A stretch of DNA of 64,000 bases from Eubacteriales bacterium (GTDB lineage Bacteria > Bacillota > Clostridia > Lachnospirales > Lachnospiraceae), in the NCBI GenBank assembly GCA_030539395.1, contig JAUNSC010000016.1:1-64000 (forward strand), written 5' to 3'. Position numbers and translations under genes: made by a program. Below, one piece after another: positions 266 through 14,519 of the stretch (its first letter is position 1; each line of letters starts with the position of its first letter). Under the pieces are notes generated by a model that made no database searches, was not told the origin of the DNA, and saw only the letters and a list, made by a program, of their open reading frames with translations.

Positions 266-2880
266 CTAGATTCCGCTTACCATCTGCCGGATAGAATCCA
301 TGGAAGAAACCTGCATCTGCGCTGTCTCCATTGCTGATACCTTCGGGCTGATGACCATATCCGCAGCCACGCCTTCCACTGCCTGTTTTACCACTCCTTT
401 GCTCTTCTCAATTCCCTGTGCCAGCCCCTTCATAAAGTCCGGCATCCAGCTCTCGTAATCGGTCAGCGGACCTTCATCCGGCACGGAAAAATGCAGGTGG
501 GAACGGATGGCATTTGCCACATCCGACACCGCATTGATCACATTTCCGATACAGCTTCGGATACCGTTCACGATTCCGCCGATCAGGTCAGCTCCCCACC
601 GAAAAGCACTGGAAGCCAGCCCCGTGATAAAGCTGGCCGCCTGATTGAAACCGGACACAATCGTGCTGTAAACATTTCCCATGGCTGTCCGGATACTGGA
701 AACCACGTTGTTAAATACCGTGGAAACCGCTGACTTCACCGCATTCAGTACAGAAGAAGTCACGGATTTTACATTATTCCATACACTGGACACCACCGCT
801 GTCACAACCGCTTTTATCGCATTCCACACTGTAGTAAATACCATCTGGATGGCTGTCAGAATCGTGGTAATGACTGTTTTAATTGCTGTCCATGCCGTAG
901 TCAGGAAGGTCTGGATTGCCGTACCGACAGTCACCACCGTGGTTCGGATTGCATTCCAGATGGTACTGAAAAATGTGGAAATGGCAGTCAGGACTGTGGT
1001 AAACATATTTTGTATTCCCTGCCAGCAGGCAGTAAAAAAGGAAGAAAGTCCTTGAAAGACCGTCTTCCCTGTCTCCACAATCCCACTCCACAAATTTGTT
1101 AAAAAGGTTCCAATAGCGTTCCAAGCCGCAACCGTGGCTGCCTTGATTGCTTCCCATACCGCAGTGACTGCTTCCCGGAACCACTCACATTTATTCCATA
1201 GCAGCACGATAATGGCAATCACCGCTGCAATGGCAATCGGCACCCAGCCGATAGCCGCCACCACTGCCGTGATTGCCGGGATTACCGTACCGGACACAAA
1301 ACCAACCACGCCGGAAATGGCTCCCGCAACCTGCGGAATCACCGTCATAATGGTTCCAATGGCCCCCACCACTTTGCCGATCACAATCAGCACCGGGGCA
1401 ATGGCAGCCACTACTAAAGCAATGGTGACAATGATCTTCTTCGTTCCTTCATCCAACCCGTTCAACCAGTCCACCAGCCCCTGAATCCATCCCAAAATCT
1501 GCCGGATGGACGGCATCAGAATCTCCCCAATGGAGATAGCAAGCTCTTCCAACTGGCTTTTTAAGATGGTAAGCTGGCCTGCCAGATTGTCCTGCATGGT
1601 CTCCGCCATCTTTTCCGCCGTGCCGTCACAGTTCGTAATGGCATTGTTCAGCTTTTCGATATCCGCAGGAGCCGCATTCATCACCGCAAGGAAGCCGCTC
1701 ATAGCGTTCTTGCCTACCAGCGCCTCCACATTCGCCGCCTGCTCCGACTCGGACATCTGGGAAAAAGCCACCCGGCAGTCCGCCAGGATATCCCCAAGAC
1801 TCCGCATACTGCCATCTGTATTTGTGGTCTGGATGGTTAACTCCCCAAAAGCATCCCCTACAAAGGTTACTTCCCCGGTCAGACTGATCAGCATGGTACG
1901 CATGGCAGTACCGGCCTGAGAAGACTTGATGCCTGCATTCGCCATCAGACCAATCGCTTCGGCAGTATCCTCCGCTGTAAATCCCAACGCTCCGGCTACA
2001 GGCGCACAATACTTGAACGTCTCGCCCATCATGGAAACATTCGTATTCGCATTCGAGCTTGCCGCCGCAAGGATATCCGCAAAATGCCCGGAATCCGCTG
2101 CCGACAGCCCAAGCGCAGTCAGGGCATCTGTCACAATATCAGAAGTGGTCGCCAGATCCTCACCGGAAGCGGCGGCAAGGTTCATAATGCCCTCGATACC
2201 GTCCAGCATATCCCCGGTCTTCCAACCAGCCATTGCCATATAGTTCATGGCTTCCGCCGCTTCGGATGCAGAGAACTTTGTCTTTGCTCCCATCTCACGG
2301 GCTTTCTCCCGGAGCGCATCCAAATCCTTTCCGGTTGCCCCGGACACAGCCGCCACCTGGCTCATTCCAGAATCAAAATCCGCAGCCACCTTTACTGCTG
2401 CAGCGCCAAGACCTCCACCGCTGCTGTAACAGGCATCAGTTTCTGGCCGACACCTTCAATGGAAGAACCCACACTTTTCAGCTTCTCCCCGGTTGCCCCG
2501 ATCTTCTGCAGCGCCACCGCAGACTTATCCGCCTGCTTCTCCAGCTCCTCCAGAGCTTTCTCTGTTTCTACAATTTCCCTCTGAAGTGCATCATACTGGC
2601 TCTGGCTGATCTCCCCTTTCGCCAGTGCTTCATTGGCCTGCTGGCTCGCCAGCTTCAAAGCATCCAACTTTTCCTTTGTCTCGTTAATGGCCTGTGTCAA
2701 AAGTTTCTGTTTCTGCGCCATCAGGTCTGTGTTGCCGGGGTCCAACTTTAAGAGCTTGTTCACATCTTTTAGCTGGCTCTGCGTATCCCGGATTTCCTTA
2801 TTAACTTTTGAAAGGGCTGTAGAAAGCTTGGTCGTATCCCCACCAATCTCAACTGTAATGCCCTGGATTCTGGATGCCAC
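266..2880 (-). pseudogene. Phage tail tape-measure protein, frameshifted
   Basis: The tape measure sets the length of a siphophage tail and lines its tube. Two reading frames together encode about 870 residues. The N-terminal part (2880-2392) starts at a GTG preceded by AGGTGGG and has the family opening (ITVEIGGDTTKLSTALSKVN) and a coiled coil. The second part (2389-266) carries the conserved AADFDSGMSQVAAVSGATG core, membrane-like helices and Trp-rich repeats near its middle. The frames should join as VTAAV..GLGAAAVKVAADF, but one base is lost or two gained near 2395-2425, giving a premature stop at 2392. No other intact phage gene flanks it, so it looks like the remnant of a decayed prophage. 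Programmed frameshifts occur in the tail chaperone upstream of this gene in phages, not at this place. Confidence 0.85.
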
Positions 2881-2904
2881 GCTCCCACCTGCCTCTCTCC
2901 CACG

Positions 2905-2926
2905 AAAAAAGAGCCATCTCTGGCTC
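2905..2926 (-). terminator. Rho-independent terminator upstream of tape-measure relic
   Basis: Perfect 6-bp stem GAGCCA/TGGCTC with a 4-nt loop, followed on the minus strand by six T. It lies between the tape-measure start and whatever phage gene once preceded it. Confidence 0.65.
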
Positions 2927-2938
2927 CCATACAACATG

Positions 2939-3025: not shown

Positions 3026-3054
3026 TTGTACTTTTTCTGGATATTGCATATAAT
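3026..3054 (+). promoter_or_regulatory. Strong sigma-A promoter of the type III antitoxin RNA
   Basis: TTGTAC (3026-3031), 17-bp spacer, TATAAT (3049-3054). The expected transcription start, about 3061, falls just before the first RNA repeat at 3066. Confidence 0.75.
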
Positions 3055-3060
3055 AAAAAT

Positions 3061-3170
3061 ACAGAAAATGTTGCCGCTTACTGATGGTGCGGGGTATAAA
3101 TTATTCAGTGCGTTAAATGTTTTCGCTTACCGATGGTGCGATTATAAATTATTCGGTATGAACATCTTAT
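3061..3170 (+). ncRNA. cptI: CptI-type repeat RNA antitoxin (two 49-nt repeats)
   Basis: Two direct repeats of 49 nt start at 3066 and 3115. They share AAATGTT, CGCTTAC, GATGGTGCG and TATAAATTATTC blocks, with a few substitutions and one 1-nt length change. In type III toxin-antitoxin systems the antitoxin is a tandem-repeat RNA that the cognate toxin cuts into single repeats and is inhibited by. Promoter, repeats, terminator and toxin occur here in exactly that order, and a low repeat number around two fits the CptIN family. The RNA role is inferred from this layout and from the toxin family. Confidence 0.75.
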
Positions 3171-3194
3171 CCCCACCTTCGTGGTGGGGATTTT
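3171..3194 (+). terminator. Attenuating terminator between antitoxin repeats and toxin
   Basis: CCCCACC/GGTGGGG stem (7 bp, loop TTCGT) followed by ATTTTT. In type III systems this terminator sets the excess of antitoxin RNA over toxin mRNA. Confidence 0.85.
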
Positions 3195-3208
3195 TATTAA
3201 GGAGATTT

Positions 3209-3694
3209 ATGAAAATACAATCCGGATTTTACTATCACATAAAAGATACCTTTTTTGAAGAAATACAGGACAGCACCTTGATGTCCAATAAAGAAGACGG
3301 TAACTATCGTCCCCACTATCTTGCGATACAGGACACACGGCATCCTGAAATTTTCTGGATGGTTCCTGTAAGCTCCAAATATGCCAAATACCAAAAAATC
3401 TATAACAGCCAGCTTAAAAAGTACAAAAAATGTACGAAAATTGTTTTAGGGAAATGCGGTGGATGGGATGCTGCTTTCCTAATTCAAAATGCATTCCCCA
3501 CCACAGCAGATTACTTTGACCATATACATACAAGCAAAGGAATCCCCTTAACACTGCATGGCGGTACTGCAAAATTGATTGCAGATAATCTAAAGAACAA
3601 CCTGCGCCTGCATAAACGTGGAATTTCTCTTTTTTATGCTGATATTGACCGTATCTATGATATCATGGTCAATAAAATAAATTCCGAAAAGTGA
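3209..3694 (+). CDS. cptN: Type III toxin-antitoxin system endoribonuclease toxin, CptN/ToxN superfamily
   Basis: A 161-residue protein starting MKIQSGFYYHIKDTFF, with AAGGAG five bases before the ATG. Size, the early FYYHIKD segment, the MSNK...YRPHYLAI block and the central MVPVSSK / KIYNSQLKKY segments match the CptN branch of the ToxN/AbiQ endoRNases as I remember them. These enzymes cut cellular mRNA and their own antitoxin RNA, and several members block phage growth by abortive infection. The upstream repeats and terminator give independent support. A longer open frame runs upstream from 2633, but it crosses the promoter, repeats and terminator and is not the gene. The module sits beside a prophage relic, a common place for phage-defence or stabilisation cassettes. 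Confidence 0.8.
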   Translation: MKIQSGFYYHIKDTFFEEIQDSTLMSNKEDGNYRPHYLAIQDTRHPEIFWMVPVSSKYAKYQKIYNSQLKKYKKCTKIVLGKCGGWDAAFLIQNAFPTTADYFDHIHTSKGIPLTLHGGTAKLIADNLKNNLRLHKRGISLFYADIDRIYDIMVNKINSEK

Positions 3695-3736
3695 TCATAC
3701 GGGGCAGACCCCTGCCCCGTATCACCGCGTATACCC

Positions 3737-3805
3737 TCACTCTTCCGTAACCTCCATCCACGCTTCCAGTTCTCCGGACCGGATTCTGATTTTTCGTTTT
3801 GCCAT
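3737..3805 (-). CDS. Possible 22-residue basic peptide
   Basis: ATG at 3805, preceded by AAAGGAAAG, opens a 22-codon frame reading MAKRKIRIRSGELEAWMEVT plus two Glu, ending in TGA. It lies just downstream of the strong terminator at 3870-3911 on the same strand, so its transcription is unclear. It may be a stub of a phage gene left by decay. No family is recognised. Confidence 0.25.
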   Translation of the reverse strand: MAKRKIRIRSGELEAWMEVTEE

Positions 3806-12892: not shown

Positions 12893-13154
12893 GGATTTTT
12901 TCTGCGTTATAGTATTATATGAAAAGTATATTCCCCTTCAACTTTCGTCCCGTGGTTCTCTCTTTTGCCACGGAGTATAGACTTTTGCCAAAAAGTACAG
13001 GGTTTCGTCCTGTGGTATCCATTTACCCAAATACTACAGAACAAAACCCTGTTTTCTACTTACCCCACCCGGAGTAAAATTTTTAATTCACATCTGACTT
13101 CTTCGTAAAAACACAAGTCCATTTTTCCCAAAAGTACCCAAAAAGCCCGGAAAA
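12893..13154. other. Intergenic region between convergent genes
   Basis: No gene seen. It holds a duplicated box (TTTCGTCCCGTGGT at 12943 and TTTCGTCCTGTGGT at 13003, exactly 60 bp apart) and the long hairpin described separately. The rest is unremarkable AT-rich spacer. Confidence 0.5.
12997..13052. terminator. Bidirectional terminator with 22-bp stem
   Basis: Arms 12997-13018 and 13031-13052 pair over 22 bp with a 12-nt loop. The arms differ from perfect complementarity only by transitions that give G-U pairs. GTTTT follows on the plus strand and ACTTTTTGG on the minus strand, so it can serve both the CMD gene and rlmD. Confidence 0.75.
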
Positions 13155-14519
13155 TCAGCGTTTCTTAACGAGAAGAGCCACTGTTTCCACATGCACACTC
13201 ATCGGGAACTGATCTACGGCCCTGCAGCGTGTCAGTTCGTACCCATTATTGCATAAAATACGCAAATCCCTTGCCAGGGTTGCACTGTCGCAGCTGACAT
13301 ATACCACACGATCCGGTTTCATTTCTATGATAGTGTTTAACAAAACCTCATCGCAGCCCTTTCGGGGCGGATCCACCACTATCACATTGGCACGTATACG
13401 ATGCTTTTTGTAAACCTCCGGCAGAATTTCTTCCGCCTTGCCCACATAAAACTGCGCATTTCTAATGTCGTTGATCTTTGCATTACGGCAGGCATCATCA
13501 ATAGCCTGCGGTACAATTTCCACACCATACACTTTCTTTGCCTTTTGCGCCAAAAACAGAGAAATCGTCCCAATACCGCAATACAGATCCCAAACAATCT
13601 CATCACCGGTCAGTCCGGCGTATTCCAGAGCAAGTCCATACAGCTTTTCAGTCTGTACGGGATTTACCTGGAAAAAAGACAAAGGGGAAATCTGATATTT
13701 TACATTCCCAATATAATCTTCAATGTACGGTTTTCCCCACAAAAGTTTCACTTCTTTTCCAAGAATCACATTTGTACGCTGCCGGTTTATATTCAAAGAA
13801 ATACTTGTCATCCCCGGAAGTTCCCGCAACCGCTCCGTCAAAATATCTGAAGCCGGGAAGTCATTTCCGTTGATTATCAGGCATACCATAATTTCTTTCG
13901 TTCGGAAACCATACCGGATCAGCACATGGCGCACAAGCCCTTTGCCCGTCTCCTCATCATAAGCCGTGATATGATTCTGTTCCATATGGTCAATAATAAT
14001 ATTTAATATCTCCTCATTTACATCTACGCCCAGACAGCATTTCCGATTGCTGATAATAGAGTGAGTCCGTCCTGCATAGAATCCTGCAATAATCTTTCCG
14101 TTTTTGTCTGTTCCGATCGGAAACTGTGCCTTATTTCGGTAATAAAAAGGAGTTTCCATTCCAACAATCGGCTCCATGGGAATTTCCGAGGGTGCAAATC
14201 CTCCAATCCGCATTAGATTACTGCGCACCTTATTTTCTTTGAAACGCAGCTGCTCTGTATAATCCATCTCCTGGATCTGACAGCCGCCGCACTGCTTTGC
14301 CACCGGACACAGAGCTTTCACCCTGTAAGGCGAAGGTTCTAAAATATTCATCAATCGGGCATAGCCATAAGTCTTTTTCATTTTCATGACTTTTGCTTCC
14401 ACAGTATCCCCGATAATGGTATCTTTCACAAACAGTGTTATGCCGTCTGCACGACCAATCCCTGCGCCGTCTGTCCCGATATCTTCTATTTTTATCTGTA
14501 CCAGATCATCTTTTTTCAT
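13155..14519 (-). CDS. rlmD: 23S rRNA (uracil-5-)-methyltransferase, RumA/RlmD family
   Basis: 454 residues. An N-terminal TRAM domain (IKIEDIGTDGAGIGRADGIT) is followed by the iron-sulfur Cys cluster CPVAKQCGGCQ. The Rossmann methyltransferase domain has VWDLYCGIGTISLFLAQKAK, the DPPRKGCDE loop and the catalytic Cys region YVSCDSATLARDL. The enzyme makes 5-methyluridine in 23S rRNA; which uridine is not certain, since Firmicute members can have RlmCD dual activity. It lies 3 bp after the ABC permease gene and may be the tail of that operon. Confidence 0.9.
   Translation of the reverse strand: MKKDDLVQIKIEDIGTDGAGIGRADGITLFVKDTIIGDTVEAKVMKMKKTYGYARLMNILEPSPYRVKALCPVAKQCGGCQIQEMDYTEQLRFKENKVRSNLMRIGGFAPSEIPMEPIVGMETPFYYRNKAQFPIGTDKNGKIIAGFYAGRTHSIISNRKCCLGVDVNEEILNIIIDHMEQNHITAYDEETGKGLVRHVLIRYGFRTKEIMVCLIINGNDFPASDILTERLRELPGMTSISLNINRQRTNVILGKEVKLLWGKPYIEDYIGNVKYQISPLSFFQVNPVQTEKLYGLALEYAGLTGDEIVWDLYCGIGTISLFLAQKAKKVYGVEIVPQAIDDACRNAKINDIRNAQFYVGKAEEILPEVYKKHRIRANVIVVDPPRKGCDEVLLNTIIEMKPDRVVYVSCDSATLARDLRILCNNGYELTRCRAVDQFPMSVHVETVALLVKKR

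Follow-up and report, generated by a model that had tools for sequence, protein, structure and literature searches.

A CptIN toxin-antitoxin module in a decayed prophage, probably a moron that HK97-type siphophages of gut bacteria carry between tail chaperone and tape measure

Comparison with described systems

Among the described systems closest to the present locus is CptIN of Eubacterium rectale, whose toxin structure has been solved (4RMO). According to its description (PMC4627078), the CptI RNA derives from two genetic repeats of 45 nt each and shows stems S1 and S2, a one-base L1, and a long A-rich L2. The same paper reports that E. rectale CptIN stabilised a plasmid yet gave no resistance to more than 200 coliphages in E. 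coli. ToxIN, the ToxIN/AbiQ type III system, is a hexamer according to PMC5086642, as opposed to the tetramer of CptIN. In phage HK97, an extra gene annotated as a moron product (gp15) lies with a terminator between the tail chaperone gp14 and the tape measure. In Clostridioides difficile prophages, PMC12373285 describes AbiF-RCd22, a prophage-borne toxin in a late phage module that is neutralised by an upstream two-repeat RNA.

The locus examined here lies in a window of 64,000 nucleotides, positions 1 to 64,000 of contig JAUNSC010000016.1 in a Lachnospiraceae assembly (GCA_030539395.1). At 3026-3694, a promoter is followed by two repeats of about 49 nt, then by a terminator and a ribosome-binding site, and finally by the gene for a CptN toxin of 161 aa; the module and the hairpin behind it are listed below.

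3026..3054, plus strand: cptI promoter, with a weak -35 element TTGTAC (3026-3031), a 17-nt spacer, and the -10 element TATAAT (3049-3054)
3066..3114, plus strand: cptI repeat 1, 49 nt, with S1 core 3074-3077/3089-3092, S2 3079-3084/3105-3110, and an A/U-rich loop between
3115..3162, plus strand: cptI repeat 2, 48 nt, with S1 3123-3126/3138-3141 and S2 3128-3133/3153-3158
3169..3191, plus strand: Rho-independent terminator at the antitoxin/toxin boundary, 9 pairs and a T-rich tail
3200..3204, plus strand: ribosome-binding site AGGAG, as read from the sequence
3209..3694, plus strand: cptN toxin gene (protein P0001, type III TA endoribonuclease), ATG at 3209, stop at 3694, 161 aa
3697..3722, minus strand: terminator-like hairpin behind cptN, facing the phage late-operon direction

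With E. rectale CptIN the module shares a homologous toxin (E 9.8e-22 against 4RMO, residues 3-151), two tandem repeats of 45-49 nt, a predicted H-type pseudoknot in which S1 and S2 are joined by a minimal L1 and an A-rich loop, a terminator between RNA and toxin, and adjacent active-site serines. It differs in its repeats, which are 49 and 48 nt long and of other sequence, in the pocket residues His107, Gly84, and Ala88, and in its probable phage carriage, antisense in a tail operon, whereas the E. rectale locus has been reported as chromosomal only. As far as sequence can say, the window module would work like the solved one. The type III plan is also that of ToxIN/AbiQ (PF13958), a complete example of which occupies the same phage slot in a viral relative (L168); in contrast, the window protein has no Pfam match, and the L168 ToxIN has 36-nt units and the opposite orientation. 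Unlike the module, HK97 gp15 is a single small protein in sense orientation, annotated in a coliphage, and AbiF-RCd22 has an unrelated toxin (Abi_2, Cas13-like) and lies in a lysis module instead of a tail operon (PMC12373285). The CptIN class is known, and the present copy is an ordinary, well-formed one; its novelty is its phage context.

Repeat RNA, toxin, and integrity of the module

The promoter proposed in the earlier note, TTGTAC and TATAAT at a distance of 17 nt, was present at 3026-3054. Its -10 element is perfect, and the -35 element, with three of six consensus bases, was too weak for a promoter scanner to report it. TATAAT stood ahead of repeat 1 in all 15 loci checked, several of which are close relatives and some near-identical. 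An AGGAG/AGGAGG-like site was visible in all 15 loci compared, and the terminator between repeats and toxin had predicted fold energies of -14 to -20 kcal/mol in 15 loci. The canonical order of a terminator (3169-3191) followed by a 161-residue toxin (3209-3694) was found as claimed. No CptI family was matched in Rfam; a weak anti-hemB match at 3123-3198 (20.9 bits against a gathering threshold of 49.5) was due to the terminator hairpin and was discarded. On the minus strand, two terminator-like hairpins were also seen at 2909-2969, just before the tape-measure start and in late-operon direction.

The repeats start at 3066 and 3115, a spacing of 49, and are 88% identical over 26 nt and then 93% identical over 15 nt at a spacing of 48, indicating that copy 2 is one base shorter. 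The two 49-nt repeats described before are hence correct as two tandem copies spaced by 49, with the second copy being 48 nt. Their small number had been taken as unusual; this view was not upheld, since E. rectale CptI likewise derives from two genetic repeats of 45 nt (PMC4627078). At up to three mismatches, a 17-base repeat core occurred twice in the window against 0.21 expected, a number also reached by 2 of 100 shuffles; both matches were exact. Elsewhere in the 3.37-Mb, 77-contig assembly, no further match to the core was found at up to two mismatches.

For the RNA structure, 17 repeat units from 11 loci were aligned, hand-picked with near-duplicates left out, and an H-type pseudoknot was drawn from, and scored on, these same units. 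It consists of S1 with 5 pairs, L1 with 1 nt, S2 with 6 pairs, and a 12-column A/U-rich loop. Pairing was observed in 95.7% of 186 cells, compared with a shuffled mean of 91.8% (none of 500 shuffles reached the observed value) and 24.7-50.8% for slid versions. Four pairs were changed on both sides (shuffled mean 2.0; 13 of 500), two in S1 and two in S2, and 13 cells carried double changes (shuffled mean 4.1; 0 of 500). Between the two window repeats, a C-G pair of S2 was replaced by U-A, a compensated change. Further pair types were not above the shuffles (6, mean 7.0), and the outermost S1 pair failed in 8 of 16 units. Judged from these alignments, an H-type pseudoknot suits the window repeats, and each of its stems shows compensatory changes across the aligned units, which supports the pseudoknotted units suggested earlier; a pseudoknot-free single-sequence fold of the whole window RNA disagrees and favours other pairings (z -2.18, with an equally good fold in 9 of 200 shuffles).

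The repeat core also matched 35 viral stretches, which were surveyed for orphan cptI RNAs as phage decoys. Two-repeat cptI was found in L044 and L070; in L045, two repeats can be made out by eye, of which one fits the pattern, and L065 has one complete unit. The 31 other stretches showed no full unit by a regular expression that had missed L045 too, so that absence of full units from them is not proven.

P0001 matched the NCBIfam equivalog NF047359 ("type III toxin-antitoxin system CptIN family toxin") with E 9.1e-52 and 174.9 bits (cut-off 90). Weaker matches in the structure-sequence comparison, to haemoglobins at E 5e-4 and worse, look like chance, and the structure prediction of the window CptN (pLDDT 48.6) was too poor to use. 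Pfam and PADLOC searches gave no family matching P0001, and PF13958 had no match in the own genome or in any control; consequently the module was not classed as ToxIN. A ToxIN/AbiQ identity of the toxin was also considered and rejected, as the PF13958 and AbiQ models were unmatched. The family comparison thus places the protein with CptN (NF047359, 4RMO) and not with ToxN, and with the covarying tandem pseudoknot repeats and the terminator ahead of the toxin it bears out the original CptIN-type assignment.

We aligned 55 CptN sequences, comprising the window protein, 4RMO, and, from 80 matches, 53 ORFs that were 130 aa or longer, identical ones having been removed. Ser55 was present in all of them and Ser56 in 50, and position 57 was Lys, Arg, or Gln; the window toxin has this Ser-Ser-basic active site as Ser55, Ser56, and Lys57. 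The adenine-pocket residues of CptN-Er, given as Asp81, Ser85, and Tyr104 in PMC4627078, are replaced in the window by Gly84, Ala88, and His107, respectively. These residues are not family-defining, because only 21, 15, and 29 of the 55 members have them, and where they are replaced, recognition of the base at the cleavage site may differ. At position 107, whose 4RMO counterpart Tyr104 holds the scissile adenine, the family is split into 29 Tyr and 26 His, which may mark a different cleavage preference.

The window toxin is under purifying selection (dN/dS 0.04-0.09). The ratio was 0.042 against L043 and L044 (11 synonymous and 2 non-synonymous differences), 0.085 against L030, and 0.047 and 0.075 against L036 and L037, where dS already exceeded 1.8; for the remaining five relatives dS was saturated. 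With these low values for L043 and L030 and with every element of the module whole, it is very unlikely that the window copy has decayed to a non-functional state, as some of its relatives have. In L031 (3321-3801), a deletion brings toxin codon 20 up against the beginning of repeat 2 and leaves repeat 1, which could be real or a metagenome assembly fault. L065 (4620-4980) holds a hybrid cptI unit, with a start like repeat 1 and an end like repeat 2, and a terminator, after which a CptN N-terminal piece and then another CptN piece in opposite orientation follow; this decayed locus may still make one antitoxin unit. The toxin matches in L040-L042 are partial.

Phage context of the module

The minus strand ahead of the module holds a broken phage gene.

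266..2389, minus strand: remainder of a tape-measure relic, in another frame and frameshifted; the contig ends at window position 1
2392..2937, minus strand: 5' part of the tape-measure relic; 2419-2883 has 85% aa identity to the tape-measure N-terminus of L070

The module had been described as lying beside a prophage relic. The relic was identified as this frameshifted tape-measure gene; the module, however, is probably not merely beside it but cargo of the phage. L070 (IMG/VR 3300018471_000136) is a 14-kb fragment of a prophage, flanked on one side by host genes, in which a terminase piece, portal, protease, capsid, connectors, major tail protein, chaperone, antisense CptIN, and tape measure follow in this order. 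Homology of the window to L070 stops at 3738, 16 bases beyond the hairpin at 3697-3722, and the window retains the tape-measure side only; a search of the own genome, run without a positive control, found no chaperone. At the 3' end of an rlmD-like gene, 255 bp of the window (12942-13196) are 92.5% identical to sequence just ahead of the L070 phage remnant. An rlmD-like gene is close to CptIN in L030 too, and the elements possibly share an integration neighbourhood.

Antisense CptIN at the chaperone/tape-measure junction was also found in L044, in the genome contigs L031, L037, and L042, and in L190. The viral contigs carrying it there are L043/L070, L044, and L045/L190. L190 is a 39.8-kb viral contig whose CptN is 65% and whose chaperone is 58% identical; its tape measure is intact (1180 aa) across the 12.5 kb viewed, and its slot holds an extra 102-aa zinc-ribbon ORF.

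In the bacterial family, CptN was matched in 67 of 397 genomes, 56 of them above the cut-off. Among 79 CptN-bearing loci, 11 (8 distinct contigs, the window included) adjoin a tape measure and/or a chaperone, and the other 68 have neither within the flanks examined, mostly 1.5-5 kb. Phage carriage accordingly characterises the clade of the window and not CptIN as a whole, and even in that clade about half of the contigs are without phage neighbours. The 68 loci and the commonness of CptIN in the bacterial family would suit a bacterial chromosomal CptIN that came to lie beside a prophage remnant merely by chance. Such a coincidence is nevertheless highly improbable, because three viral contigs from two diverged phage lineages, and likewise the genome contigs L031, L037, and L042, agree in both the position and the antisense orientation of CptIN, because chaperone and tape measure lie on opposite sides of CptIN in six contigs (L031, L043, L044, L037, L042, and L190), and because L190, over the 12.5 kb viewed, comes near an intact prophage with CptIN at the slot. 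A phage-cargo origin of CptIN is well supported for the window's clade, and the window copy is most likely a phage moron that persisted while its prophage decayed.

Searches with P0001 and L014 found CptN in none of 50,697 named-phage records, and eight plasmid records had CptN, every one below 60% identity. A second, diverged CptN (profile positions 41-150), cut by the contig start, lies at C43:40-387 (L028) of the own genome. At L030:5487-5630, a CptIN without phage genes is accompanied by a weak vestige, 14 residues long, of the short ORF on the chaperone side (E 0.003), which is what a phage leftover would be expected to keep.

Cargo at the chaperone/tape-measure junction and its possible benefit

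Junctions were measured in the best 80 of 330 viral relatives of the L070 chaperone (set 1) and the best 80 of 294 for the L190 chaperone (set 2). Both query phages carry CptIN and are counted in the sets. By eye, the sets share no contig, and two rows of set 2 are one contig (3300046030_000049). Entries with no tape-measure start in reach were dropped (18 of 80 in set 1 and 16 of 80 in set 2), leaving 62 and 64 measured junctions. With a 450-bp limit that was picked after the first gap distribution had been seen, the chaperone-to-tape-measure gap was longer in 51 of 62 cases in set 1 (up to 2825 bp) and in 39 of 64 in set 2 (up to 4099 bp). Elsewhere among the late genes, only 3 of 437 gaps at seven junctions of set 1 and 1 of 382 gaps at six junctions of set 2 exceeded it. 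The short gaps spanned 223-234 bp in set 1 (11 of 62) after subtraction of the chaperone end (238-249 before) and 176-279 bp in set 2 (25 of 64). Together, 90 of 126 measured junctions were filled (L109-L188 and L191-L270), and by their DNA the 51 filled gaps of set 1 sorted into 37 distinct cargo groups. In L163 the junction is empty; it aligned to the chaperone-side end of all 51 filled set 1 gaps, ending by base 188 of 238, where a short ORF overlapping the chaperone end also ends; this ORF is probably a frameshift extension of the chaperone.

Morons are autonomous pieces of phage cargo that bring along a promoter and terminators. The short junctions of both sets show the two flanking genes adjacent in relatives; CptIN is an extra unit between these genes, and the module has its own promoter (3026-3054) and terminator hairpins (3169-3191 and 3697-3722). 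We conclude with good confidence that window 3026-3694 is a complete CptIN, a moron of HK97-type siphophages of gut Firmicutes left in a decayed prophage. A literature search of partial coverage, with most subscription papers outside it, recognised no description of a chaperone/tape-measure cargo slot.

ORFs of 85 aa or longer numbered 70 in set 1 and formed 52 clusters; some of them are probably spurious. Of the 70, 63 run with the late genes, and CptIN is among the 7 antisense. Thirty of 46 listed set 1 representatives were scanned with Pfam, and 10 exceeded the cut-off and 20 fell below; the families were ToxN, RES (barely), AAA_33, ParE, RelB, AbiJ_NTD4, metallo-beta-lactamase fold, GNAT, YhcG, and DUF3800. 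PADLOC matched 6 of 20 scanned ORFs (AbiQ; PDC-S32, PDC-S02, PDC-M68A, and PDC-S51, where PDC denotes a phage defence candidate; and a weak RTasHEPN) and left 14 unmatched. In set 2, 5 of 10 ORFs passed in Pfam (AbiEi, AbiEii, protein kinase, M78 peptidase, and SocA/Panacea). Most scanned cargo is hence without a Pfam name, 25 of 40 ORFs from both sets passing no cut-off. By locus, AbiEi/AbiEii lie in L254, an AbiJ-like gene in L145, ParE and RelB in L180, and a YhcG-like gene in L138.

The slot of L168 (580-1720) holds a complete ToxIN, a member of the second large family of type III systems, with three 36-nt repeats, a visible hairpin with a T-run, and ToxN (PF13958 E 4.6e-47; 4ATO E 1.9e-9) ahead of the tape measure, all in sense and opposite to the CptIN orientation. 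With its ToxN as the query, 3 of the 50,697 named-phage records were found. A tandem-repeat scan of the 90 filled slots for type III TAs flagged L168, L191, and two coding repeats; it missed the known L109/L110 and is therefore insensitive.

Type III toxins are triggered by transcription shut-off. The slot lies between the genes for the tail-assembly chaperone and the tape measure, and in it the module runs antisense to the late operon. There the promoter would yield the repeat RNA, and a fraction of transcripts would read through the terminator into the toxin, as in type III TAs generally. CptN would cut the precursor into pseudoknots of about 49 nt, which would keep it inactive, probably in a 2:2 complex like that of E. 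rectale CptIN in 4RMO; the pairing within the repeats is supported here. Once the RNA supply stops, free CptN would presumably cleave cellular and phage RNA.

The hints on function are split. Exclusion of competing phages may be the likeliest main benefit to the prophage, at roughly even chances: slot-mates are largely single genes, several of which fit anti-phage models (the 6 of 20 above), and HK97 gp15, at the equivalent place, is reportedly a superinfection exclusion protein, going by the title of Cumby 2012. Retention of the element by addiction, in place of phage exclusion, would come next and is put forward only tentatively. It agrees with the published tests, in which E. rectale CptIN lifted plasmid retention to 100% and left more than 200 coliphages unblocked (PMC4627078), and with a window module that is intact while the tape measure is broken; the coliphage test, however, used a foreign host. 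As phage cargo sharing a slot with ToxIN/AbiQ, AbiE, and AbiJ-like genes, CptIN makes protection of lysogens against competing gut phages testable.

More broadly, we see an evenly balanced case for regarding the slot in these HK97-type siphophages, which infect gut Firmicutes and belong in part to "Ca. Heliusvirales", as a dedicated, rapidly exchanged site for TA and anti-phage cargo. CptIN and ToxIN would have been recruited to it independently in opposite orientations, phage-free CptIN copies would partly be leftovers, and the unnamed slot genes would be a source of undescribed defence systems. With 37 cargo groups in 51 filled junctions, the slot offers a compact target in which new defence genes of phages can readily be sought. 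Complete named phages matching the chaperone amounted to 48 records; of four opened, one had no extra, and three had slot extras (885 nt, an acetyltransferase, and 315 nt).
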